From positions 372,001-436,000 of the forward strand of contig NZ_FOBH01000002.1 of the NCBI RefSeq assembly GCF_900109785.1: DNA of 64,000 nt. The letters are read 5' to 3'. Positions 1 through 53,182 of this stretch are shown piece by piece. The stretch is from Nitrosovibrio tenuis. GTDB taxonomy: Bacteria > Pseudomonadota > Gammaproteobacteria > Burkholderiales > Nitrosomonadaceae. Position numbers and translations under genes: made by a program. The notes beneath the pieces were generated by a model that did not search any database, was not told where the DNA came from, and was given only the letters and a program-made list of their open reading frames with translations. Positions within the stretch are counted from its first letter, which is position 1. Each line of letters starts with the position of its first letter.

Positions 1-384
1 GCGGTTTAATTTACGAATCCGCTCACTCGGCGTAATGATGTCGGTCAGCCGAATACCGAATTTTTCATTGACAACCACAACTTCACCCTGGGCAATCAAA
101 TATCCATTAACCAATACGTCCATCGGTTCTCCTGCCAAACCGTCCAACTCCACAACTGAGCCTTGAGCCAGTTGCAGCAAATTCTTGATGGCAATTTTGG
201 TCCGCCCCAACTGTACGGTGAGCTGGACCGGTATATCCATGATCATGTCTATATCGTTCTGGATTTCCGACTTTTGCCCACCGTTGAATTGCTCGAAAAT
301 CCGTGCTGAAGCAGGGTCTGCCGCGGCCATTGCGGCATCTTCCTGCTCGATCACACGGGCTGAATTAGTTTTTTTTGCGGGCAC
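1..384 (-). CDS. fliN: Flagellar motor switch protein FliN (3' end outside window)
   Basis: FliN is a C-ring (switch complex) component that binds FliM and FliH and helps reverse the motor. The visible 128 codons start at a GTG preceded by a GGGAGA ribosome-binding site. After an acidic/alanine-rich N-terminus they enter the SpoA (surface-presentation) domain: 'IPVQLTVQLGRTKIAIKNLL', then 'GSVVELDGLAGEPMDVLVNG' and 'LIAQGEVVVVNEKFGIRL', all typical of FliN. The gene runs off the left edge, and only the last few residues should be missing. It lies 62 bp after fliM in the same operon. fliO, fliP, fliQ and fliR would be expected next, outside the window. Confidence 0.95.
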   Translation of the reverse strand, partial: MPAKKTNSARVIEQEDAAMAAADPASARIFEQFNGGQKSEIQNDIDMIMDIPVQLTVQLGRTKIAIKNLLQLAQGSVVELDGLAGEPMDVLVNGYLIAQGEVVVVNEKFGIRLTDIITPSERIRKLNR

Positions 385-14678: not shown

Positions 14679-15824
14679 TTAACCCCTGAGTAAGGTCAGG
14701 ACACTTTGCGGCATTGCATTGGCCTGAGCCAGCATGGCCGTTCCCGCCTGTTGCAGCACTTGATTGCGGGACAGCGTTGCGGTTTCAGAGGCAAAATCCG
14801 TATCGACGATACGGCTGCGAGATGCAGTCAGGTTCTCGGCGGTGGTTTGCACATTCGATATCGCCGACGAGAAGCGGTTCTGATATGCGCCCAGATCGGC
14901 ACGGCCCGCGTTAAGCGCACTGAGCGCCTTATCCATGGAAGCAATGGCAGCGTCGGCGCCCCACTTGGTGCTGATGTCCAAACTCGTGAACCCGGCGACT
15001 GTAGTGGCCGAGGTCGTAGCTGCTGTCAGGCCGGTGGTTGCCGTGGTGGCGGTGCCCGCAAGAGCCACGACCGTACTGCCGCCAGACACGTTAATAAGCG
15101 ACACCGCGCCGGTAGCCGCATTGGCTGTGGCATAGACACTGGTCGTGTTGGATACCGTATTGATAGCGGCCGCGATGTTCGCTCCCTGAGTGACGGCATT
15201 ACCACCTGCGGCGACCGCACCCACGCTGGTACCGTTGATGGTCAGGTCGCCCGCGGTGATTGCGGTAAAAGCCGTGGCGGCAATGCCGGTCACGTTGGCG
15301 GTGGTGGTAGTGCCCAGGGATGAGCTTTGCGCATTCACCAGGCTGTTGATATTGATGGTTTCACCGACATTGGCGCCTACCTGGAACGATTGATTGGTAA
15401 ACGAGCCATCGATCAGCTTGATTCCGTTGAACGAGGTGGTCGAGGCGACACGGTCAATTTCCGATTTAACCTGCTGTACTTCATTATTGAGCGCGGTACG
15501 GTCGCTTGCGCTGTTGCTTGCATTGCGCGATTGCACGGCCAACTCGCGGATGCGCTGCAGGTTGTTGCCGATTTCTCCCAAAGCGCCCTCGGCGGTTTGC
15601 GACATCGAGATACCGTCGTTAGCATTGCGGACTGCCTGGTTAAGACCACGAATCTGCGAAGTCATACGCTCGGAAATCGCCAGCCCCGCGGCATCGTCCT
15701 TCGCGCTGTTAATACGCAGACCGGAGGACAATCGCTGCAGCGTGGTGGCGAGTGCGTTCTGCGAACTGTTGAGGTTGCGCTGCGCATTCAACGAAATGAC
15801 GTTGGTATTAATAATTGCTGCCAT
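14679..15824 (-). CDS. fliC: Flagellin FliC, copy 1
   Basis: 381 aa from the ATG '[18 protein letters not shown]', which follows an AGAAGGAGA ribosome-binding site. A GTG 33 bp upstream lacks a site and is rejected. Flagellin D0/D1 coiled-coil ends are conserved: '[20 protein letters not shown]' at the N-terminus and '[20 protein letters not shown]' near the C-terminus ('QSVLTLLRG' end). The central D2 region (about residues 170-300) is low in complexity, Ala/Thr/Gly-rich. It differs from copy 2 by about 20 substitutions, all between roughly residues 100 and 320. A sigma-28 promoter precedes it. Confidence 0.97.
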   Translation of the reverse strand: MAAIINTNVISLNAQRNLNSSQNALATTLQRLSSGLRINSAKDDAAGLAISERMTSQIRGLNQAVRNANDGISMSQTAEGALGEIGNNLQRIRELAVQSRNASNSASDRTALNNEVQQVKSEIDRVASTTSFNGIKLIDGSFTNQSFQVGANVGETININSLVNAQSSSLGTTTTANVTGIAATAFTAITAGDLTINGTSVGAVAAGGNAVTQGANIAAAINTVSNTTSVYATANAATGAVSLINVSGGSTVVALAGTATTATTGLTAATTSATTVAGFTSLDISTKWGADAAIASMDKALSALNAGRADLGAYQNRFSSAISNVQTTAENLTASRSRIVDTDFASETATLSRNQVLQQAGTAMLAQANAMPQSVLTLLRG

Positions 15825-15919
15825 GTAAATCTCCTTCTGGTTTTTATGGAATTGCACCGTACAGCGTCAAGTTTGGGTCGCCTTCCCTACCGGAGGCTGA
15901 TCAATCGCTGTTATGCTTA

Positions 15920-16981: not shown

Positions 16982-18127
16982 TTAACCCCTGAGTAAGGTC
17001 AGGACACTTTGCGGCATTGCATTGGCCTGAGCCAGCATGGCCGTTCCCGCCTGTTGCAGCACTTGATTGCGGGACAGCGTTGCGGTTTCAGAGGCAAAAT
17101 CCGTATCGACGATACGGCTGCGAGATGCAGTCAGGTTCTCGGCGGTGGTTTGCACATTCGATATCGCCGACGAGAAGCGGTTCTGATATGCGCCCAGATC
17201 GGCACGGCCCGCGTTAAGCGCGGCCAATGCCGAATCCATTGAGGCAACAGCCGCGTTGGCTCCGGCCTTGGTGCTGATGTCCACTCCGCTAAAACCTGCA
17301 ACTGTAGTGGCCGAGGTCGTAGCTGCTGTCAGGCCGGTGGTTGCCGTGGTGGCGGTGCCCGCAAGAGCCACCACCGTACTGCCGCCAGACACGTTATAAA
17401 GCGACACCGCGCCGGTAGCGGCATTGGCTTCGGCATAGACACTGGTTGTGCCGGATACCGAATTAATGGCTGCCGCGATGTTTACACCCTGAGTGACAGC
17501 ATTGCCGCCGGCGGCGACCGCACCCACGCTGGTACCGTTGATGGTCAGGTCGCCCGCGGTGATTGCGGTGAAAGCCGTGGCGGCAATGCCGGTGACATTC
17601 GCTGTGGAGCTACTGCCCAGTGATGAGGTTTGCGCATTTACCAGGTTGTTGATATTGATGGTTTCACCGACATTGGCGCCTACCTGGAATGATTGATTGG
17701 TAAACGAGCCATCGATCAGCTTGATGCCGTTGAACGATGTGGTCGTGGCAACGCGGTCAATTTCCGATTTAAGCTGCTGTACTTCATTATTGAGCGCGGT
17801 ACGGTCGCTTGCGCTGTTGCTTGCGTTGCGCGATTGCACGGCCAACTCGCGGATGCGCTGCAGGTTGTTGCCGATTTCTCCCAAAGCGCCCTCGGCGGTT
17901 TGCGACATCGAGATACCGTCGTTAGCATTGCGGACTGCCTGGTTAAGACCACGAATCTGCGAAGTCATACGCTCGGAAATCGCCAGCCCCGCGGCATCGT
18001 CCTTCGCGCTGTTAATACGCAGACCGGAGGACAATCGCTGCAGCGTGGTGGCGAGTGCGTTCTGCGAACTGTTGAGGTTGCGCTGCGCATTCAACGAAAT
18101 GACGTTGGTATTAATAATTGCTGCCAT
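16982..18127 (-). CDS. fliC: Flagellin FliC, copy 2
   Basis: 381 aa, same start, ribosome-binding site and length as copy 1. The first ~100 and last ~60 residues are identical in both. Substitutions such as Val/Leu and Ser/Thr, plus '[13 protein letters not shown]' versus 'STKWGADAAIASM', sit in the exposed middle part. It is upstream of copy 1 in transcription order but has its own sigma-28 promoter and stem-loop, so the two are independent units. They could make a mixed filament or be expressed alternatively (inference). Confidence 0.97.
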
Positions 18128-18222
18128 GTAAATCTCCTTCTGGTTTTTATGGAATTGCACCGTACAGCGTCAAGTTTAGGTCGCCTTCCCTACCGGAGGC
18201 TGATCAATCGCTGTTATGCTTA

Positions 18223-18249
18223 TTAACGGTGACCTAGGAGAAACATTTA
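18223..18249 (-). promoter_or_regulatory. Sigma-28 (FliA) promoter of fliC copy 2
   Basis: Minus strand: TAAA, 15 bases, ACCGTTAA. The boxes are identical to the copy 1 promoter, with one changed spacer base. The distance to the ATG is the same. Confidence 0.85.
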
Positions 18250-18296
18250 ACCTATCCGCCAAGTTTTTTTTAAAGGAGTATCCGCTTCATGCATTG

Positions 18297-18440
18297 TCAT
18301 GACAAACCGTTGGAATGGCACGTCATAAGATGATAAGCATCATATGTCCAAACTGCGTCTCGTAAAGAGGAAGGAGAGGAAGGGCTCGGGGGAACATGAG
18401 CACCGCACGCGTGAGCGGGAATTGAACCTGGGCAAAAATG
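18297..18440. repeat. Diverged repeat shared with 16224-16376
   Basis: Shared blocks include AAACCGTTGG, GAGGAAGGAGAGGAAGGGCT, GAGCACCGCAC and GTGAGCGGGAATTGAACCTG. The identity is far lower than within the flagellin unit. It lies between the promoter of fliC copy 2 and the response regulator gene. No function is visible. Confidence 0.65.
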
Positions 18441-18526
18441 ATGGAGGGGATTGAATCCCTCGTATCTGTCGATGGATGTGCTGAAAATGATGGGCTCGGC
18501 GAGAGCTACTCAGGCCGTGCCAGGAA

Positions 18527-19153
18527 TCAGGCCAAACCATTTTTGATGGCGTAATGGGTTAGCTCGGCGTTGTTTTTGAGCTTCATCTTTTCCAGCAGGC
18601 GGCTGCGGTAGACGCTAACCGTCTTTACAGACAGGCGCATCTCCTCTGCGGCGTCAGTCAGGCTTTTGCCGGACGCAATCAGGCACAGAGTCTGGTATTC
18701 CCTATCGGACAGCGTCTCATGAGGCGACCGGTCAGGGTCTTCACCGAAGCTGTCCGCCATGGCCTCGGCCAGCGTGGCGGTGAGATATTTGCGGCCCTTC
18801 GCCACGTGGTGGATCGCGGCCATCAGCTCGCCCGGCGCGCTCTGCTTGGTGATATAACCCGACGCACCCGCCTTCAGTGCTCGGATAGCATATATGCCTT
18901 CATCGTGCATGCTGAGCATAAGGACGCGGATTTTCGGGCATTCTTTTTTGATTTGCTTCAAGATCTCGATGCCGTTCCTGTCCGGCAAGGATATGTCCAG
19001 CACCACAACATCCCATCCGCCTTCCCGTACTTGCCGCATCGCTTCGGCGCCACGCTCCGCTTCCCCGACAAGCAAGACTTTACCGCTCTCTATCAGGATC
19101 TGCCTCAAGCCTTGGCGGACGATAGCATGATCGTCGACGATGAGAATATTCAT
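18527..19153 (-). CDS. NarL/LuxR-family two-component response regulator
   Basis: 208 aa. The receiver domain (residues 1-120) has the acidic pair Asp7-Asp8 and phospho-acceptor Asp53 in 'VVVLDISLPDRNGIEIL', a Ser/Thr switch in 'VLMLSMHDEG' and Lys in 'SGYITKQSAPGEL'. The C-terminal LuxR-type helix-turn-helix follows ('LSDREYQTLCLIASGKSLTD', 'AAEEMRLSVKTVSVYRSRLL'). The start overlaps the sensor kinase stop by 4 bp, so they form a pair. Its position next to the flagellins, and a NarL-type palindrome in front of flhD, make flagellar genes plausible targets, but this is inference. Confidence 0.95.
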   Translation of the reverse strand: MNILIVDDHAIVRQGLRQILIESGKVLLVGEAERGAEAMRQVREGGWDVVVLDISLPDRNGIEILKQIKKECPKIRVLMLSMHDEGIYAIRALKAGASGYITKQSAPGELMAAIHHVAKGRKYLTATLAEAMADSFGEDPDRSPHETLSDREYQTLCLIASGKSLTDAAEEMRLSVKTVSVYRSRLLEKMKLKNNAELTHYAIKNGLA

Positions 19154-20273
19154 GACTTCACGCCGTTCAGCTGTACGATGGCTGGATCATTCAGCCTTGT
19201 CGCGAGCGGAATCAACAAATGCACCGTAGTACCTCGTCCGGCCATACCGCTTACAGTCAGCTTGCCGTCGAGCAGGCCGGCGCGTTCAATCATGCCGCGA
19301 ATGCCAAAAGAATTGAATTTGGAAGTATCCGCCGGCGTGATGCCGCAGCCGTTATCGCGCACCTCCAGTTGCAATTGGCCTTTCGCTGTATCCGCAACCA
19401 AACTTACCCACGCGCGGGAGGCGCGGCCGTGTTTGGCGATATTTGTAAGCGCTTCCTGAAAAATCCGGAATACCGAAATCGCCACATCCTGTTCCAATTC
19501 GATGTCCTGATGGGCACCAATGACTTCGCACGGAATGCGGAGGCGCTTGCTGAATTCTCCAGCCTCCCATTCGATGGCCGCAACAATGCCAAAATCCATG
19601 ATACCCGGGCGCAGGTCCCGCGATATGCGCTTGATTGAATCCATGGTGCGATCGACCATTTGAGAGACGGTATGGATTTTTGCCACCCATGCCTCGTTTT
19701 CTGCGGCGTCGCTGCCTCCGCTGCCGCCGCGCACGTTGCGAGCCAACCAATCCAGATCAATCTTGATAGCCGTCAGATTGCCGCCCAGGTCATCGTGGAT
19801 TTCCCGAGCAATGCGAATGCGCTCATGTTCCCTTGCCGCTATGATATGAGACGATATTTCTTTGAGCCGTTCATGAGATTCCTTGAGCTCTGTCTCTCGT
19901 TGTCTGCTCTGGGTGATGTTGATAATGATCCCTTCCCAGATGACGCCAATACCTTTCTCCCGGCGCGGACTCGCCCGCAGGCTGACCCACTTTACGTCGT
20001 TATAGGATTCGATCCACAGGCGTCCCTCCCAATTCCATGTGGACAGATTGGCGGCTGATTGTGCTCTGGAATCATACAGGCCTTTTCGGTCCTTCCACAG
20101 TATGATCTCCTCGAACAGCGCGGGATTGGCCTGCAACGTCTCAGCCGTAATCCCAGCACATTGGCGCACTGGTTGCTGACAAACGGTACGGCATATTGAC
20201 CATCTTCGCACAGTATGTACTGGAAAACCATGCCAGGAGCGAGGGAAACGATGGCTCTTGATTGTGCTTCCAT
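19150..20273 (-). pseudogene. PAS sensor histidine kinase (NarX/DegS type), apparent frameshift
   Basis: Two overlapping frames together encode one protein. The first 41 residues, from an ATG at 20273 behind GGATCAGG, reach 'PFVSNQCANVLG' in a PAS domain. The next frame resumes at 'ITAETLQANPALFEEIILW' and continues through PAS/PAC ('GVIWEGIIINITQ'), a HisKA_3 dimerisation domain with 'AREIHDDLGGNLTAIKIDL' (His phospho-acceptor) and an HATPase domain ('EVRDNGCGITPADTSKFNSF', 'GIRGMIERAGLLDGKL'). The break lies at the three C's at 20152-20154; one extra base there would restore the frame. The catalytic part is intact, so this may be a real loss of sensing, a sequencing error, or a gene rescued by an internal start. 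Confidence 0.8.
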
Positions 20274-20611
20274 TATCCTGATCCTTTCAATATCTTTTCT
20301 CTTCTTTTCCTTTTTCTTCTCACTTCAGCCGACGTTATCGGAAGGGGCGATAATACCGTCTCCGCACCCGGTATTTCAATGCGCACATACAGCGGAAAAG
20401 CAGCCAAATTAATTCAGGAAAAAAGCGGGCGTACTCAATGCCTCAAGCGTATACCACTCTTGCGGGTGGACACAACTCTTTGACAATCGATAGGTTCCGC
20501 CAAAGCCTTCCTTTTAATTCGCTCCCATTCAGCGCGAGGGAATTTCTAAAAATGGAATTATCCACATCCCATCAAATCAAATAATGATGGGTATGTCCAG
20601 GACAGTCGGCA
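20274..20611. other. Gap between sensor kinase and thioredoxin-like gene
   Basis: This 338-bp gap contains the kinase promoter side and a 7-bp-stem inverted repeat (CCCATCA/TGATGGG, 20568-20591) just downstream of the thioredoxin-like gene. No T-run follows the repeat. I see no coding potential. Confidence 0.4.
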
Positions 20612-20938
20612 TCATACTGTGCCGGAAACCCTATCCAGGGCTTCACTAATCACTGCGGCATCGGCGGGGCGGACCAGGCGGGCGATTTCTTTGCCGTCCT
20701 TTAAAAAAATCAGAGTCGGCCAGAGCGTGACGCGAAAAGACCGCCCAAGCGGACGACCCTTGCCGTCTTCTACCTTTATGTGGCGTATGGCAGGGCGCTC
20801 GGAGAGCGCCGATGCAATCAATGGTTGGGCAGCGCGGCAATAGCCGCACCATGAAGCGCCGAATTCCAGAAGCGTTACCCCACGGAGGAAATCAATCTCG
20901 GCGCGTTTGGGTTCGCTCGCGGCATAAGTATTGTTCAT
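20612..20938 (-). CDS. Thioredoxin-family protein
   Basis: 108 aa cytosolic protein with no signal peptide. The thioredoxin fold is supported by 'TLLEFGASWCGYCRAAQPL' (active-site Cys31-Gly-Tyr-Cys34) and the cis-proline strand 'VTLWPTLIFLKDGKEIARL'. The WCGYC variant and the short N-terminus separate it from canonical TrxA (WCGPC), suggesting a specialised disulfide reductase. It lies alone between the two-component genes and the HDOD gene, with 150-bp-plus gaps either side. The substrate is unknown. Confidence 0.9.
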   Translation of the reverse strand: MNNTYAASEPKRAEIDFLRGVTLLEFGASWCGYCRAAQPLIASALSERPAIRHIKVEDGKGRPLGRSFRVTLWPTLIFLKDGKEIARLVRPADAAVISEALDRVSGTV

Positions 20939-21090
20939 GCATCCATTATAAATACTTCAGCCCCACCGGGGAATTCAGCCGTGCCGGATGGATTGATCGG
21001 TGTAATAAAGTAACGGCTTATGCTCTGCTACAACTTCAGTCATCCTCAATTCATCCGTGGATTTTGGCTGGTTCTCATAAGAGGACAAAG

Positions 21091-22395
21091 CTAAGTTACA
21101 TTACGCTTGCATACATTGGACAACAAATTATTGCTCCATTCAAACGCTTCCAATTGCAGGGGATAAAGATCTGCAACCGGCAGTTCCAATTTAACAAGCA
21201 GCGGTAATAGAAGCCGGCTGGCCTCAGCGGGTTTTTCAATATATTCGGATAGCTTCAGCAAGTCACCGTAAAAGCCGGCGCGATATAATAAAGCTTCGCT
21301 GACATCCTTGCCGAGAACCATCCGTTCAAGAATTTTCTTCATGGGTTGTCCGAATAGTGCGTCCAGCAGGGATAGGATACCAACCGTGAAAGCGGTATCG
21401 GCGACAGCCTTGGTCGCAGGTTTCAATTTTTCCGCGGCGAGCTCAAGAAGTTTGCCCCGCGTCGTTGCCAGCAATAGAAGTGGCGATGCGAGCTGAGTAC
21501 TGGTATGACTCCCGACATAGAGCTGGATTTGCAGCCATCGCTGCAGTTGGCGGCGGCCCAACACCACTAAAGCCTCACTTAATGAGTTGATGCTCTTCGT
21601 GATGCCCATCCCGGGCGTATTGACCAGCCTCAGCAATGACAGGCAGAGCGATACTTCCTTCTTGATGCTGTGCTCGATTTCCGCATTATCGGCATCCCTG
21701 GCTAGCAACATCATCAACTGCACAATTACCGATTGCGAGGTGGTCAGCGTTTTGCCCGACAGAATAGCGGGCTTGGCAAAATAATAGCCTTGGTGATAGT
21801 CGAATCCAAGATCCAGATAATTCCGGAACTGCTCGATCGTGTCCACTTTTTCTGCCAGAAGTAATTTGTTGGCCTGCTTGAACTGATCGACCACGATGAC
21901 TATGTCTTCCCAGGTCATGGCAAACGTATTGATTTTGACGATCTCTATCAGGGGCAGCAGCGGCTTGATGTAGTCGGAATACGTAATCACATCGTCGAGC
22001 GCAAACGTGTACCCTTCATCCACCATTTTGGAGACGCGCTGGACAAGCTCGGAAGTTACGTTGATTGTTTGAGGAATTTCAAGCACGATCCTCTGGCTTG
22101 GCAGAAAATCAACCAGGTCACGCATGAGCGTAGCATAGTCGACATTCAAGAATCCCCTGACTCCGCCAATTACATTTTCAAGACCGAGTTCCGATGCATG
22201 CGCGATTATGGAGACAGCTCCGCGCCAGTTGTCCGCGTCGCTCGCTGAACAAGCTTCCGGACGGCGGAACAATAATTCATAAGCAACAAGGTTCTCGTTC
22301 CGATCCAGAATCGGTTGGCGTGCAAGGAAAAACTCCTTCACTTGAGGAGCAAAAGAAAAATCGTGAGCCATATCGGGATCGTTCGTCGGTCTCAA
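21091..22395 (-). CDS. EAL-like/HDOD domain signalling protein (YuxH type)
   Basis: 434 aa. The N-terminal ~220 residues form an EAL-like domain: 'FLARQPILDRNENLVAYELL' opens it, but the EAL triad reads 'YELLFR'. Later motifs are altered too ('FALDDVITY' instead of DDFGxG). These proteins usually lack phosphodiesterase activity and bind or sense instead. The C-terminal half is a HDOD domain ('LVNTPGMGITKSINSLSEAL', 'LGRRQLQRWLQIQLYVG'). Placed beside flgL within the flagellar locus, it may link c-di-GMP or other signals to motility (inference). The start could also be the Met nine codons in (MAHDFSFAP). Confidence 0.88.
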   Translation of the reverse strand: MRPTNDPDMAHDFSFAPQVKEFFLARQPILDRNENLVAYELLFRRPEACSASDADNWRGAVSIIAHASELGLENVIGGVRGFLNVDYATLMRDLVDFLPSQRIVLEIPQTINVTSELVQRVSKMVDEGYTFALDDVITYSDYIKPLLPLIEIVKINTFAMTWEDIVIVVDQFKQANKLLLAEKVDTIEQFRNYLDLGFDYHQGYYFAKPAILSGKTLTTSQSVIVQLMMLLARDADNAEIEHSIKKEVSLCLSLLRLVNTPGMGITKSINSLSEALVVLGRRQLQRWLQIQLYVGSHTSTQLASPLLLLATTRGKLLELAAEKLKPATKAVADTAFTVGILSLLDALFGQPMKKILERMVLGKDVSEALLYRAGFYGDLLKLSEYIEKPAEASRLLLPLLVKLELPVADLYPLQLEAFEWSNNLLSNVCKRNVT

Positions 22396-46632: not shown

Positions 46633-47181
46633 CTAGTTCGCCGCTACCGCGAGCTCGGCCGAGCGTGACTTGTTCGTTTTGCCGGCACGTGACGGCATAT
46701 GGCATAAGCCGCATACATAACGTGCGTGAAGATCGTTGCTATGCACGACGAAATGTCCTCCGCAGTGAGTGCAGGGCGCGGTTTGGAGCATTTTGGCCTC
46801 GAAGAACCGTATCAAAGTCCAGGCGCGGGTCAAGCTTAACACGGGTTCTATTTCCGTCATTTCGCAATGCTCCAGATAGAGCTTATAGCTTTTGACGATA
46901 GCCGCGACACCTCGGCAGTCAGCATGCCTGATCAGATACTGGTAAGTATTTGCAAATACGGAAGAATGAATATTGGGCTGCCAGGTTAGAAACCAATCGG
47001 CCGAAAATGGCAGCATTCCCTTCGGAGGCGACACCCCTTTCAATTCCTTATAAAGCTTGATGAGTCGCTCGCGGCTCAGGGTGGTTTCGCTTTCCAGCAA
47101 CTGCAGGCGGGCGCCCAGATGAATCATCTCCATTGCGGTGTGAATTTCTCTGGCTTCCGATACAACGCTCTTTTTGCGCAT
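46633..47181 (-). CDS. flhC: Flagellar master transcriptional activator FlhC
   Basis: 182 aa. FlhC with FlhD forms the FlhD4C2 activator of early flagellar operons. The zinc-binding region shows four cysteines in two C-x2-C pairs ('APCTHCGGHFVVHSND' and 'YVCGLCHMPSRAG'). Upstream helices 'REIHTAMEMIHLGARLQLLE' and 'LIKLYKELKGVSPPKGMLPF' match the family. It lies 22 bp after flhD. The motAB unit follows with its own promoter. Confidence 0.97.
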   Translation of the reverse strand: MRKKSVVSEAREIHTAMEMIHLGARLQLLESETTLSRERLIKLYKELKGVSPPKGMLPFSADWFLTWQPNIHSSVFANTYQYLIRHADCRGVAAIVKSYKLYLEHCEMTEIEPVLSLTRAWTLIRFFEAKMLQTAPCTHCGGHFVVHSNDLHARYVCGLCHMPSRAGKTNKSRSAELAVAAN

Positions 47182-47203
47182 GATGCACCTTTTCCGGTCT
47201 GGT

Positions 47204-47521
47204 TCAGGAAATCTCTTCAGCGGGCTGGCCCGCCATCAGAATGGCTGCATGGGATTGCACCATGGCTTTGCCCTTGCTGTAATTCACCAACAGGCCGAAC
47301 ACCAGGTTATCGTCGAAGCGTATCCGGCACAGCATCATATTGGAGTTTGACAGCTTAAGGATCTGCCCCGGCGTCAGGACCTCCAGTACGTCGGCGACGT
47401 CCTTGCTTATTCCCAATCGGAAAATTGCCGTATCCTTGTCCGCCATTACCATCTGTTGGGCCAGCATCAGGTAAGTCAGATTAAGTTCCTTGATCTCGGT
47501 TGCCAATTCGTTGGATTTCAT
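47204..47521 (-). CDS. flhD: Flagellar master transcriptional activator FlhD
   Basis: 105 aa. 'EIKELNLTYLMLAQQMVMAD' and 'DTAIFRLGISKDVADVLEVL' are characteristic. A GGGAGG ribosome-binding site precedes the ATG. It is first gene of flhDC. Its 460-bp upstream region holds a striking palindrome, so its own control is likely to be complex. Confidence 0.97.
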   Translation of the reverse strand: MKSNELATEIKELNLTYLMLAQQMVMADKDTAIFRLGISKDVADVLEVLTPGQILKLSNSNMMLCRIRFDDNLVFGLLVNYSKGKAMVQSHAAILMAGQPAEEIS

Positions 47522-47981
47522 TATTGCCTCCCGTTAATGTAATGTCGCCATTGTGCCCAGCCGCACAGCAGCACAAAACCGGAATAAATCCGATTTGCAG
47601 GTAAGAAATAATAGAGATCCTGTGTAGGAAAATTTCCTACACGATAATCCAACTTAATCCAACAGGTAACTTGCCGGAGAACGGCTAATGAGATACACCG
47701 CCCCTAATGAGACAGAGCTGTGTCCTTTGTTTCAGACAACGGCCAGCTTTAGGGAAAACTTTAGTATTTAACAGAAATATTTATGAAATATTGGTGATTA
47801 CGACTTGCCAGGCTATTGGTCCTCATAAATTATGGAGTCGCGGTGATTATCAATTAAAAAGTGATTATCAGCTTTCCACCCTTCTGCAAAAGCGGAAACC
47901 GAGCTATTCCAAAGCCCATGATAGCCAAATGTTAGGAAATCAGGGCTTCGCAGCCGATCCAAGGTCAGGTAGCCCGCGTAA
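47522..47981. promoter_or_regulatory. flhDC upstream region
   Basis: This 460-bp region between flhD and the convergent end of the next gene contains the 47622-47642 palindrome, about 100 bp before flhD. Its remainder is AT-rich with no reliable ORF. It is the expected location of the master operon promoter, but I cannot assign a sigma-70 promoter with confidence. Confidence 0.5.
47622..47642. promoter_or_regulatory. Perfect palindrome upstream of flhD (NarL/RcsB-like site)
   Basis: Two 10-base arms, GTGTAGGAAA and TTTCCTACAC, face each other around a single A. The core TAGGAAA...TTTCCTA resembles targets of NarL/LuxR-type response regulators such as RcsB, which controls flhDC in enterics. 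It lies about 100 bp upstream of the flhD start. It has no T-run, so it is not a terminator. Confidence 0.7.
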
Positions 47982-49193
47982 TCAACGAAATTTTCTATCC
48001 AGTGCAGTGTAGAAGGAACTGATTTGCCCTCTTATGCTGAGTGCGCCGCTTTTATCCTCTTTGGCTAAATCATCCACCAGTGCTTCGATGGCCGGTCGCT
48101 TTTCCTTAAACTCGGCCACTACCTGTGAAACGTCGCCCGGTTTAAAAAAACGTCTATCAGCCAAGTCGGGCAGCTCAGGTGGGGAATTGTCGGATTTTAC
48201 CCAGCCAGCCAAATCATAATCGTATGGAAAAACGATCCAGTTGCCATCAGCTTCAACAACCTTGAAATTCCAGAGCCCCTGCGAGTCAGGAATGTCATCG
48301 GGAAAAATACGAAGCTCCCAATCATAATTCCGGGCAAGCGCCTGAAAAAGCAGAATTCGAATAATATCCTTCGGATCGATGGGTTCGATCGTTGAACCGG
48401 CAGCACGCGCATCTCTTTGAGCATTCACAATGCTGGTGAATATATAAGGCTTGTCGGGATCCTTGAAGCGCGCGTCCGCAGCCCGGATCTCCTTGCCGTC
48501 CGCATTCTTGACAAAGGTTTTGATATCCTCCAGGAAAAATCCGGGCATCGGCCGATCCACCACGAACCCGCTGGGCTGCGGCTCAACGGGCCCTTTTCCG
48601 GTTTTGCTGTCGATATAACTGAAGTTTGCCGGGGCTGCCTGAAAGCCCGGTATGGACAGCAGTTCCTGTACCTTATAAATGAGTGCTTCCCGATGTGGTG
48701 ACAGTCCTCCCCAGACACGATGGAAACGCACTGAAGAACCAGGCTTCCCCCCGCAATGCGTGCCTATCCCAACCGTTTTCAAACCCTCGAATAGCGTCCC
48801 TTTTGAAACTCGGTCGCCCTCCCGATCTTTTTCAAAGCTCAAGGTCATTTTGGGAAAGGGGCATTGCGATTCAACCTGGCTGGTGTTCCCGCGCAAATGC
48901 ACCTGCACCGGCAGATCATGTTTGCCTTTACTGTCTGTCCATGAAAGTTGTCCTGGCGCCTCGAATTCCTTGATGTCCTCGGGCACTTCGGCATTTGGTG
49001 GCGCACGGTGCTTCCATAAATTGCCATAGTCGGTCTTCAGCGTGAAAACGATCTTTTCCTTGGTGGTAAAGACTGGCGCTTTGGTGTGACCAATTTCGAC
49101 CGTCGCTTTGTCGGCGAGAGCAGCCGGCGCCAAAAAAAATGAGCAGGCGGCCAGAGCCATAAGCGTGATATAGGTGCGCAAATACTTTTCCAT
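47982..49193 (-). CDS. Secreted protein, possibly CotH-kinase related
   Basis: 403 aa from 'MEKYLRTYITLMALAACSFF' behind CTGGAGA. A Sec signal peptide ends at 'APAALA-DK'. No assured family. Two segments recall the CotH spore-kinase fold: 'QVHLRGNTSQVE' (compare the RGRGNSS element) and 'WIVFPYDYDLAGWVKSDN' (compare the D-x-D-x-A metal-binding element). Cysteine pairs are few. It might be a secreted protein kinase or an envelope protein. It lies in the same direction as flhDC with 460 bp between, so it is not an operon partner. Confidence 0.6.
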   Translation of the reverse strand: MEKYLRTYITLMALAACSFFLAPAALADKATVEIGHTKAPVFTTKEKIVFTLKTDYGNLWKHRAPPNAEVPEDIKEFEAPGQLSWTDSKGKHDLPVQVHLRGNTSQVESQCPFPKMTLSFEKDREGDRVSKGTLFEGLKTVGIGTHCGGKPGSSVRFHRVWGGLSPHREALIYKVQELLSIPGFQAAPANFSYIDSKTGKGPVEPQPSGFVVDRPMPGFFLEDIKTFVKNADGKEIRAADARFKDPDKPYIFTSIVNAQRDARAAGSTIEPIDPKDIIRILLFQALARNYDWELRIFPDDIPDSQGLWNFKVVEADGNWIVFPYDYDLAGWVKSDNSPPELPDLADRRFFKPGDVSQVVAEFKEKRPAIEALVDDLAKEDKSGALSIRGQISSFYTALDRKFR

Positions 49194-50867: not shown

Positions 50868-50897
50868 AGCCCGGCGAGAAGGGGGTCTCGCCGGGCT
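50868..50897 (-). terminator. Strong intrinsic terminator with no recognised gene
   Basis: The 12-bp GC-rich stem AGCCCGGCGAGA/TCTCGCCGGGCT, with a 6-base loop, is followed on the minus strand by TTTTTCATTTC. No large minus-strand gene precedes it; only a 15-codon ORF and a smaller hairpin lie immediately upstream, so it may end a small RNA or a short peptide transcript. Confidence 0.85.
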
Positions 50898-52601: not shown

Positions 52602-52910
52602 TCAGGGATCCTCCTCTTGCCCTAAATACCCTGCTTCGCGCTGATGACGAATCGCAAGAATCAGGACCACATCCTGACCTTCCTCCAGACTATAAAGGGC
52701 CACGTAGCCGGTACGTCCATGAGATATGACCAACTCACGCAATCCATACTCCACAGGTCGGCCGACAAGGGGATGCCGAACTAATAAATTTACCGCTTCT
52801 TCAATTAATTCAAGCGTCTCTGCCGCCGCCGTCGGATCTTTATCAATCAGAAAGTCGGTTAGTCTTTCGAGATCGTCAAGCGCTTGTTCCGAATAGCTCA
52901 GCTTCGCCAA
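52602..52910 (-). CDS. ParE/RelE-family toxin
   Basis: 102 aa. 'LSYSEQALDDLERLTDFLID' (alpha-1/alpha-2), 'VRHPLVGRPVEYGLRELVIS' and 'GYVALYSLEEGQDVVLILAI' followed by 'RHQREAGY' match the ParE/RelE fold, with a C-terminal RHQRE motif. It could inhibit gyrase or act as an mRNA interferase; the sequence alone does not decide. It overlaps the antitoxin stop by 13 bp. The order is antitoxin first, as usual. Confidence 0.9.
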   Translation of the reverse strand: MAKLSYSEQALDDLERLTDFLIDKDPTAAAETLELIEEAVNLLVRHPLVGRPVEYGLRELVISHGRTGYVALYSLEEGQDVVLILAIRHQREAGYLGQEEDP

Positions 52911-53182
52911 GATTTGGCTTTGGGCTTTACAGAATTATTGCCGGCGATGCGCGCCTTGAGGTAGGTGTGAACCTCATTGACATGAAAACCCTTTCCAGTA
53001 CTTAACATTTTCTCCCGTGCGGCTTGAGCTTCACCTACGAAGCTGGCACGCGATTCAGCTGCCGTGGCTGCTCTTTCTATCGCTTGGACCATGAAAGCAT
53101 GGGGCGACACTCCCTTTTTTTCAGCTGCGGCAATAGTTCGTTGCTTGAGTTCATCAGAAAGCTTTAATGATGTGGTGGCCAC
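52898..53182 (-). CDS. Antitoxin (ribbon-helix-helix, ParD/CopG type)
   Basis: 94 aa from a GTG behind GAGG. The N-terminal 'MATTSLKLSDELKQRTIAAA' with 'EKKGVSPHAFMVQAIERA' is a ribbon-helix-helix DNA-binding domain. The C-terminal half should wrap the toxin. Autoregulation through an operator at the upstream promoter is expected. It overlaps the 3' end of the integrase fragment by 29 bp. Confidence 0.88.
   Translation of the reverse strand: MATTSLKLSDELKQRTIAAAEKKGVSPHAFMVQAIERAATAAESRASFVGEAQAAREKMLSTGKGFHVNEVHTYLKARIAGNNSVKPKAKSWRS

Follow-up and report, generated by a model that had tools for sequence, protein, structure and literature searches.

The window, i.e., the whole stretch of 64,000 nucleotides analysed here, encodes the flagellar master operon flhDC and, 28 kb from flhD, a response regulator and its partner histidine kinase, lying between the flagellins and flgL (Table 1). 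Upstream of flhD, the plus strand at 47622-47642 reads GTGTAGGAAAATTTCCTACAC, i.e., GTGTAGGAAA-A-TTTCCTACAC, with two perfect 10-base arms separated by a single A. This confirms the earlier note, which had described a perfect 21-base palindrome about 100 bp before the start of the master operon: the arms have no mismatch, and the palindrome has its near edge 101 bp and its centre 111 bp from the ATG of flhD.

Table 1. Features of the flhDC upstream region and of the two-component pair in the window.
Feature	Coordinates	Strand	Basis or remarks
Site 1 (palindrome)	47622..47642	-	Strong inverted heptads TAGGAAA-N-TTTCCTA inside TGTAGG-N7-CCTACA; centre 47632
Site 2 (putative)	47602..47616	-	Centre 47609, 23 bp from site 1; half-site TTTCTTA at 47602-47608, far half degenerate
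Site 3 (putative)	47576..47596	-	Centre 47586, 46 bp from site 1; imperfect AAATCGGATT-T-ATTCCGGTTT, 8/10 pairs (hand count)
Putative weak -35	47573..47578	-	TTTTGT here; TTTACT in most of the family outside the genus, at +54..59
Putative -10	47550..47555	-	CACAAT, 17 bp from the -35; +77..82 relative to site 1
flhD, putative target gene	47204..47521	-	Pfam FlhD, 4.9e-42
flhC, putative target gene	46633..47181	-	Pfam FlhC, 6.6e-90
Response regulator (receiver + GerE), 208 aa, candidate ligand and activator	18527..19153	-	Domains, NCBIfam score, co-occurrence
Partner histidine kinase (HisKA_3 + HATPase)	19150..20211	-	N-terminus shorter than in a genus relative

Perfect palindromes with 10-base arms and a 1-base spacer are expected 0.06 times per 64 kb under a uniform expectation, and the window has one. 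With spacers of 0 to 8 bases allowed, the window has five where 0.55 are expected, and two of the five are one and the same hairpin. At 50869-50896, about 3.3 kb upstream of flhD, lies a perfect GC-rich hairpin whose 10-base arms enclose an 8-base loop. A search of the 3.1 Mb genome for the 21-base motif gave no second match with up to three mismatches allowed, so that the 21-mer is single-copy at this tolerance, and its inner 19-mer is the sole exact TGTARG-N7-CYTACA in the genome. A palindrome alone is only suggestive, and it is the conservation of the element at the same place in other genomes that points to selection.

Conservation of the site before flhD

Sites were scored against TGTARG-N7-CYTACA (12 specified bases) and counted as positive at 10/12 or more, with the reversed pattern as control. 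FlhD was found in 107 of the 125 family genomes, and the family set holds 106 rows, one per FlhD-positive genome except G026; left out were a second flhD of G022 (L070), the G026 row at the end of a contig (L092) and two partial copies of FlhD (L109, L110). In a sample of 200 genomes of the same order, FlhD matched in 74 and strongly in 65; the order set comprises the 59 rows from outside the family, which come from 58 genomes (G127 appears twice), second weak copies were dropped, and nine genomes with weak or partial FlhD matches were scored as FlhD-negative. The named set consists of 80 loci from an FlhC search, in 78 of which flhD was found (all but L184 and L186); the named loci nearest to the window are Nitrosospira (L181-L187).

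The site is present before flhD in 102 of the 106 family regions (reversed control 2/106) and in 38 of the 59 regions from the rest of the order (control 2/59). It is also present in 73 of the 78 flhD regions of named loci (control 3/78), a set in which five rows are Nitrosospira, some start codons were placed too far downstream and some species may also occur in the other sets; the loci with a site include Herbaspirillum, Noviherbaspirillum, Duganella, Janthinobacterium, Undibacterium, Thiobacillus, Methylotenera and Trinickia. All 21 same-genus regions carry the motif upstream of flhD, and the comparison with close relatives thus did not refute the earlier note. Among the order positives the centre lies 100-210 bp before the ATG in 36 of 38 cases, and the remaining two, at the odd distances of 39 and 268 bp, may be chance matches.

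The order set (n = 59) shows that spacer 7 is specific: 38 rows reach 10/12 at spacer 7, against 3, 3, 5, 0, 3 and 2 at spacers 4, 5, 6, 8, 9 and 10. Three of the five rows at spacer 6 (L148, L165 and L177) have a perfect TGTARG-N6-CYTACA, which is the spacing of UvrY. Of the 21 regions below 10/12 at spacer 7, four pass at spacer 6, and accepting either spacer gives 42/59 (control 3). Within family f48, the flhD rows L168 and L171 have 12/12 sites, L177 and L180 have a perfect and a 10/12 site at spacer 6, and L162 has no site at the usual place. The class sample (276 genomes) contained two full-length FlhD beyond the order, both without the site (best 7/12 and 9/12), and the region upstream of E. 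coli flhD scores 8/12 at spacer 7 and 10/12 at spacer 6. On this comparative evidence, the palindrome is a real, order-wide element that recurs before these genes across Betaproteobacteria, and a predicted operator of flhDC to which a regulator would bind. A literature search, for which subscription journals were mostly beyond reach, found no description of the element, and the accessible parts of PMC13063649 and PMC3283707 added nothing on it.

In this genome, the flhDC site is the sole exact site of its kind at spacers 6 and 7. The spacer-7 pattern with one mismatch occurs at five more places, against 23 for the reversed control; the spacer-6 pattern has no exact match and four one-mismatch places, against 13. 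Since one-mismatch matches are rarer than controls at both spacers, we do not claim a wider regulon. In genome G013, TAGGAGAATTTCCTA occurs at four places, one of them upstream of flhD, and could be a repeat or belong to a wider regulon.

A phased array ending at a putative promoter

Three profiles of the upstream regions were anchored on site 1, one from the 21 genus rows, one from 81 of the 87 other family rows and one from 37 of the 59 rows of the order set. Within the family but outside the genus, likeness to TARG-N7-CYTA peaks at +23 (0.88, z 4.8) and +46 (0.67, z 2.9). In the genus +46 ranks first and +23 third, and in the order +23 and +46 are the top two, if barely (0.43 and 0.41, vs 0.41 at +13). 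Palindromy has its maximum at +46 in the genus (z 4.4-4.6) and again in the order set (z 3.0). The other family rows peak at +23 instead (z 3.1), and +46 falls below their top six. Nine other family loci (L002, L007, L061-L064, L066, L080 and L085) carry site 2 as a complete TAGG-N7-CCTA palindrome and have two such motifs exactly 23 bp apart. Sites 1 to 3 look like evenly spaced binding sites, of which site 1 is the strongest; the family shows this array clearly, the wider order weakly.

The hexamer at +77..82 is conserved as CACAAT in the genus and GAAAAT elsewhere in the family. Together with the TTTACT 17 bp away it makes a plausible weak sigma-70 promoter, from which we infer a start of flhDC transcription near 47543. 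A consensus promoter scan does not call the proposed -35/-10, and their placement therefore rests on conservation. If the start is correct, sites 1, 2 and 3 would be centred near -89, -66 and -43, with the -35 beginning where the core of site 3 ends.

This layout recalls BvgA-type promoters, a likeness drawn from published descriptions. In the accessible text of PMC7250471, phosphorylated BvgA occupies the fha promoter as three dimers 22 bp apart, the strongest upstream and the last abutting the -35, and the ptx and fim3 promoters depend on a poor -35; the typical high-affinity BvgA heptad is TTTCCTA according to the part of PMC4314077 available to us. Both heptads of site 1 are TTTCCTA, as in an upstream strong site, and they would head three putative dimer sites, the strongest upstream and the last at the putative -35. 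In contrast to fha, the phasing is 23 bp instead of 22 (centres 23 and 46 bp from site 1, weak beyond the family, next to a putative -35), the TGTA/TACA flanks are conserved, the target is flhDC and the regulator is UvrY-like by score.

A flagellar-cluster regulator co-inherited with flhD

The genome encodes eight GerE-domain proteins, five of which match receiver-type regulator families. The regulator at 18527-19153, which the earlier note had put forward as a candidate ligand, has its best NCBIfam match in the UvrY/SirA/GacA family, at 183 bits (curated NF007018 cut-off 280), and scores 81 bits for RcsB (cut-off 235), both below cut-off. Its paralogue L113 has the second best UvrY/SirA/GacA score of the genome (166 bits) and 60 bits for RcsB. 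The recognition helix is SVKTVSVYRSRLLEKM in the window regulator, SAKTVSTYRARILEKM in L113, SPKTVNSYRYRMFSKL in E. coli UvrY and SIKTISSQKKSAMMKL in E. coli RcsB; the SVKTVSVYRSRLLEKM form is little changed in 20 aligned counterparts from other genomes. A tree of the regulators is poorly resolved (13 of 24 inner branches open) and served as a caution. In the available portion of PMC4682653, UvrY recognises TGTAAGNNNNNNCTTACA-like repeats that precede csrB and csrC; the half-sites of the flhDC element are of the same TGTARG/CYTACA type, with TGTAGG/CCTACA here as the R/Y form of TGTAAG/CTTACA. The flhDC element differs from the UvrY box by its spacer (7 vs 6) and by being a promoter array on flhDC instead of a distant element of an sRNA gene (csrB, csrC).

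Genomes were regulator-positive at 204 bits or more in the order (195 in a second count) and 240 or more in the family, and paralogue-positive at 215 or more; the co-occurrence lists were read by eye from search results and then counted by script. Counts below are given as both/FlhD only/regulator only/neither, and p-values are nominal, as the genomes are related and relatedness was ignored. FlhD and the regulator co-occur in the family (91/16/4/14, Fisher 2e-7), also when genus g3 is left out (25/1/0/14), and in the rest of the order sample (46/12/20/115, Fisher 8e-18). The corresponding family counts for the L113 paralogue are 64/43/4/14 (Fisher 0.004). The two genus members without FlhD, G112 and G114, also lack the regulator (at 1e-40) and any match to TAGGAAANTTTCCTA at one mismatch.

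The site is present in 90 of 90 family regions from regulator-positive genomes and in 12 of 16 from regulator-negative ones (Fisher 3.7e-4), and the only family regions without it (4/106; G042, G047, G048 and G071) are all regulator-negative. In the order, 34/47 regulator-positive regions have the site vs 4/12 negative ones at 204 bits (Fisher 0.018), and 36/52 vs 2/7 at 195 bits (Fisher 0.085), i.e., the link depends on the threshold. Among the regulator-negative family genomes that bear a site, G016, a genome of 30 contigs with an estimated completeness of 100%, shows a 12/12 site but neither the regulator nor the L113 paralogue at 1e-40; the others are less complete, and G032 retains a fragment of the regulator.

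The kinase-regulator pair is together in most of the 20 stretches examined. It forms a single row with flhD and flhC in L267 (kinase-regulator-flhD-flhC), is divergent from flhD in L269, adjoins flhD by coordinates in L268 (where no flhC is recognised) and is on the flhDC contig in L273, L274 and L275. Elsewhere it adjoins flagellin genes (L278, L279), is near flaG-fliD or flagellin genes (L276, L277) or lies by flgL- and flgK-like genes (L280, its regulator placed from the tree). Counted by eye, 22 of 47 order genomes have the regulator no more than 65 kb from flhD (21 of 46 without G130, at 203.8 bits), against an assumed chance level of 0.04; beyond this distance, many are on different contigs of fragmented assemblies and some are far apart on one contig. 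The proposal that the 18527-19153 protein is the ligand thus gains from the co-occurrence, the recurring linkage and the correlated loss, which make it the best candidate.

A flagellar-cluster response regulator of this kind has been studied in Acidovorax citrulli. From the accessible text of PMC7060138, AcrR has 209 aa, with a receiver and an HTH domain, and is encoded on the complementary strand 3' of fliRQP; its mutant has no flagella, with logFC of -2.83 for flhD and -2.77 for flhC, and 30 of the 33 affected flagellar genes are down while fliR, fliQ and fliP are up. That text describes no operator for AcrR. The window protein has the same domains and nearly the same length (208 vs 209 aa), but is placed by the flagellins, not by fliR. 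In family f48, where two of the stretches L261-L266 (L265 and L266) were examined for the FliR arrangement, the regulators L265 (209 aa) and L266 are convergent with a Bac_export_1 (FliR-type) gene, which is the arrangement of acrR. Given its domain make-up, length and arrangement, AcrR is probably the counterpart of the window regulator. A second LuxR-type motility regulator, AclR, has reportedly been described.

Compared with its 521-aa relative in G094, the window kinase has no match to the first ~140 residues within 18001-21500, and residues 141-190 are found in another frame; the kinase (19150-20270) may be decayed or misassembled. The f48 partner kinase at L265 3156-4214 begins with a receiver domain, and that of L267 has a PAS fold there, so the sensing module may have been swapped while the regulator was kept.

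Proposed activation of flhDC and its alternatives

We propose that flhDC has its primary, high-affinity operator in the palindrome, which would be bound by a dimer of the phosphorylated UvrY/GacA-like regulator 18527-19153. Two more dimers would join cooperatively, 23 and 46 bp downstream and on about the same face of the helix, and the last would contact the weak -35 and recruit RNA polymerase, so that flhDC, and hence the flagellar regulon, would be transcribed upon a signal from the partner kinase. What comparison of the genomes establishes directly, i.e., a conserved site, an array with 23-bp steps that the family shows clearly, and the co-inheritance and linkage of regulator and target, is read here as an activator operator of flhDC served by the flagellar-cluster regulator, to which we give a probability of about two in three; binding, phosphorylation, the position of the promoter and activation itself are the predicted parts. 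This reading is drawn from the co-inheritance of the regulator with FlhD, its linkage near flhDC, the correlated loss and the need of AcrR for flhDC. Site 1 stands farthest upstream in an array that stops at the putative -35, which is an activator layout, and three phased dimers that activate are the most economical explanation given the precedents of BvgA, UvrY and AcrR. We counted against it the site-bearing regulator-negative family regions (12/16, G016 included), the four family genomes with the regulator but without FlhD, the 21 of 59 order regions below 10/12 and the two order positives at odd distances, the threshold-dependent link in the order, the weak order-wide phasing, the promoter that the scan does not call, the shortened kinase, the rise of fliR, fliQ and fliP in the acrR mutant, the second motility regulator AclR, and the L113 paralogue, which has nearly the same recognition helix and could bind.

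The earlier note had likened the palindrome to targets of NarL-type regulators and to the site through which RcsB represses flhDC in enterics. The first part stands, as the element does look like a NarL/FixJ-type operator of flhDC, with conserved inverted half-sites of about 7 bases. Repression is unlikely. In its favour, the operon and the regulator superfamily are the same and the core TAGGAAA..TTTCCTA resembles a stretch upstream of E. coli flhD, TTTAGGAAAAATCTTAGA, which we take to be the RcsAB box, near the transcription start. RcsB does bind a box in the flhDC promoter (according to the available part of PMC5829831), and the flhDC start is placed here from sequence alone, which leaves some room for a repressor. 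However, the E. coli stretch, about 187 bp before the ATG, would be a repressor site in another position than site 1, which precedes the putative promoter and heads a phased array. Among the best 25 families per protein, the top RcsB score of the eight GerE proteins is 81 bits, against a cut-off of 235, so that none of them scores as RcsB, and the loss of AcrR lowers flhDC expression instead of raising it (in the accessible text of PMC7060138). The RcsB-like part of the earlier interpretation is thus unsupported on three counts, i.e., the scores of the regulator (183 bits for UvrY/SirA/GacA vs 81 for RcsB), the UvrY-type half-site TGTARG and the activator layout.

It is also improbable that another NarL-type regulator, most plausibly the L113 paralogue, binds the site, alone or with the flagellar-cluster regulator. 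L113 has a nearly identical recognition helix, an adjoining kinase gene and the second best UvrY-like score, but it co-occurs with FlhD less well than the flagellar-cluster regulator does, and its orthologue was not found in the genus members G101, G111 and G115, all of which keep FlhD and the site. A role of the palindrome as RNA, either as a terminator of the upstream gene or as a leader structure, is very doubtful: by inspection the arms could form a 7-bp stem with a 7-base loop, but the palindrome is upstream of the putative start, the upstream neighbours differ among the loci examined (an unassigned ORF in the window, but the regulator in L267 and the kinase in L269), and we rejected this candidate as there is no terminator-like site in 47450-48050 and no Rfam match at E 0.1 in 47100-48100. 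A chance palindrome, of which about 0.5 with perfect 10-base arms (spacer 0-8) would be expected per window, is refuted by the conservation at a fixed position before flhD (102/106, 38/59 and 73/78) and is almost certainly not the explanation.

A broader version of the activator reading is that a dedicated two-component system, made up of a co-inherited kinase and a UvrY/BvgA-like regulator, sits above the flagellar master operon across Betaproteobacteria and acts through a single three-dimer operator, the ancestral on-switch of flhDC in the class, with Bordetella BvgA and the enteric UvrY and RcsB as relatives used otherwise; we hold the case for and against it to be evenly balanced. Activation of flhDC outside enterics is little described, as far as we know and could find, and a conserved operator with a candidate regulator provides a testable flagellar switch in nitrifiers, Herbaspirillum, Duganella, Undibacterium and other Betaproteobacteria. 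If the site is indeed an activator operator, it would explain why the acrR mutant has no flagella. The combination of UvrY-like half-sites with a BvgA-like promoter layout would also link two well-studied systems.

Some other features of the window were noted in passing. Beside the regulator are two tandem, very similar 392-aa flagellin genes (14679-15857 and 16982-18160), and the flagellar cluster includes a gene for an EAL-HDOD protein (21091-22395) that lies close to the kinase-regulator pair. On the minus strand, two short neighbouring ORFs (52602-52910 and 52898-53182) resemble by eye a ParE-type toxin and its antitoxin.
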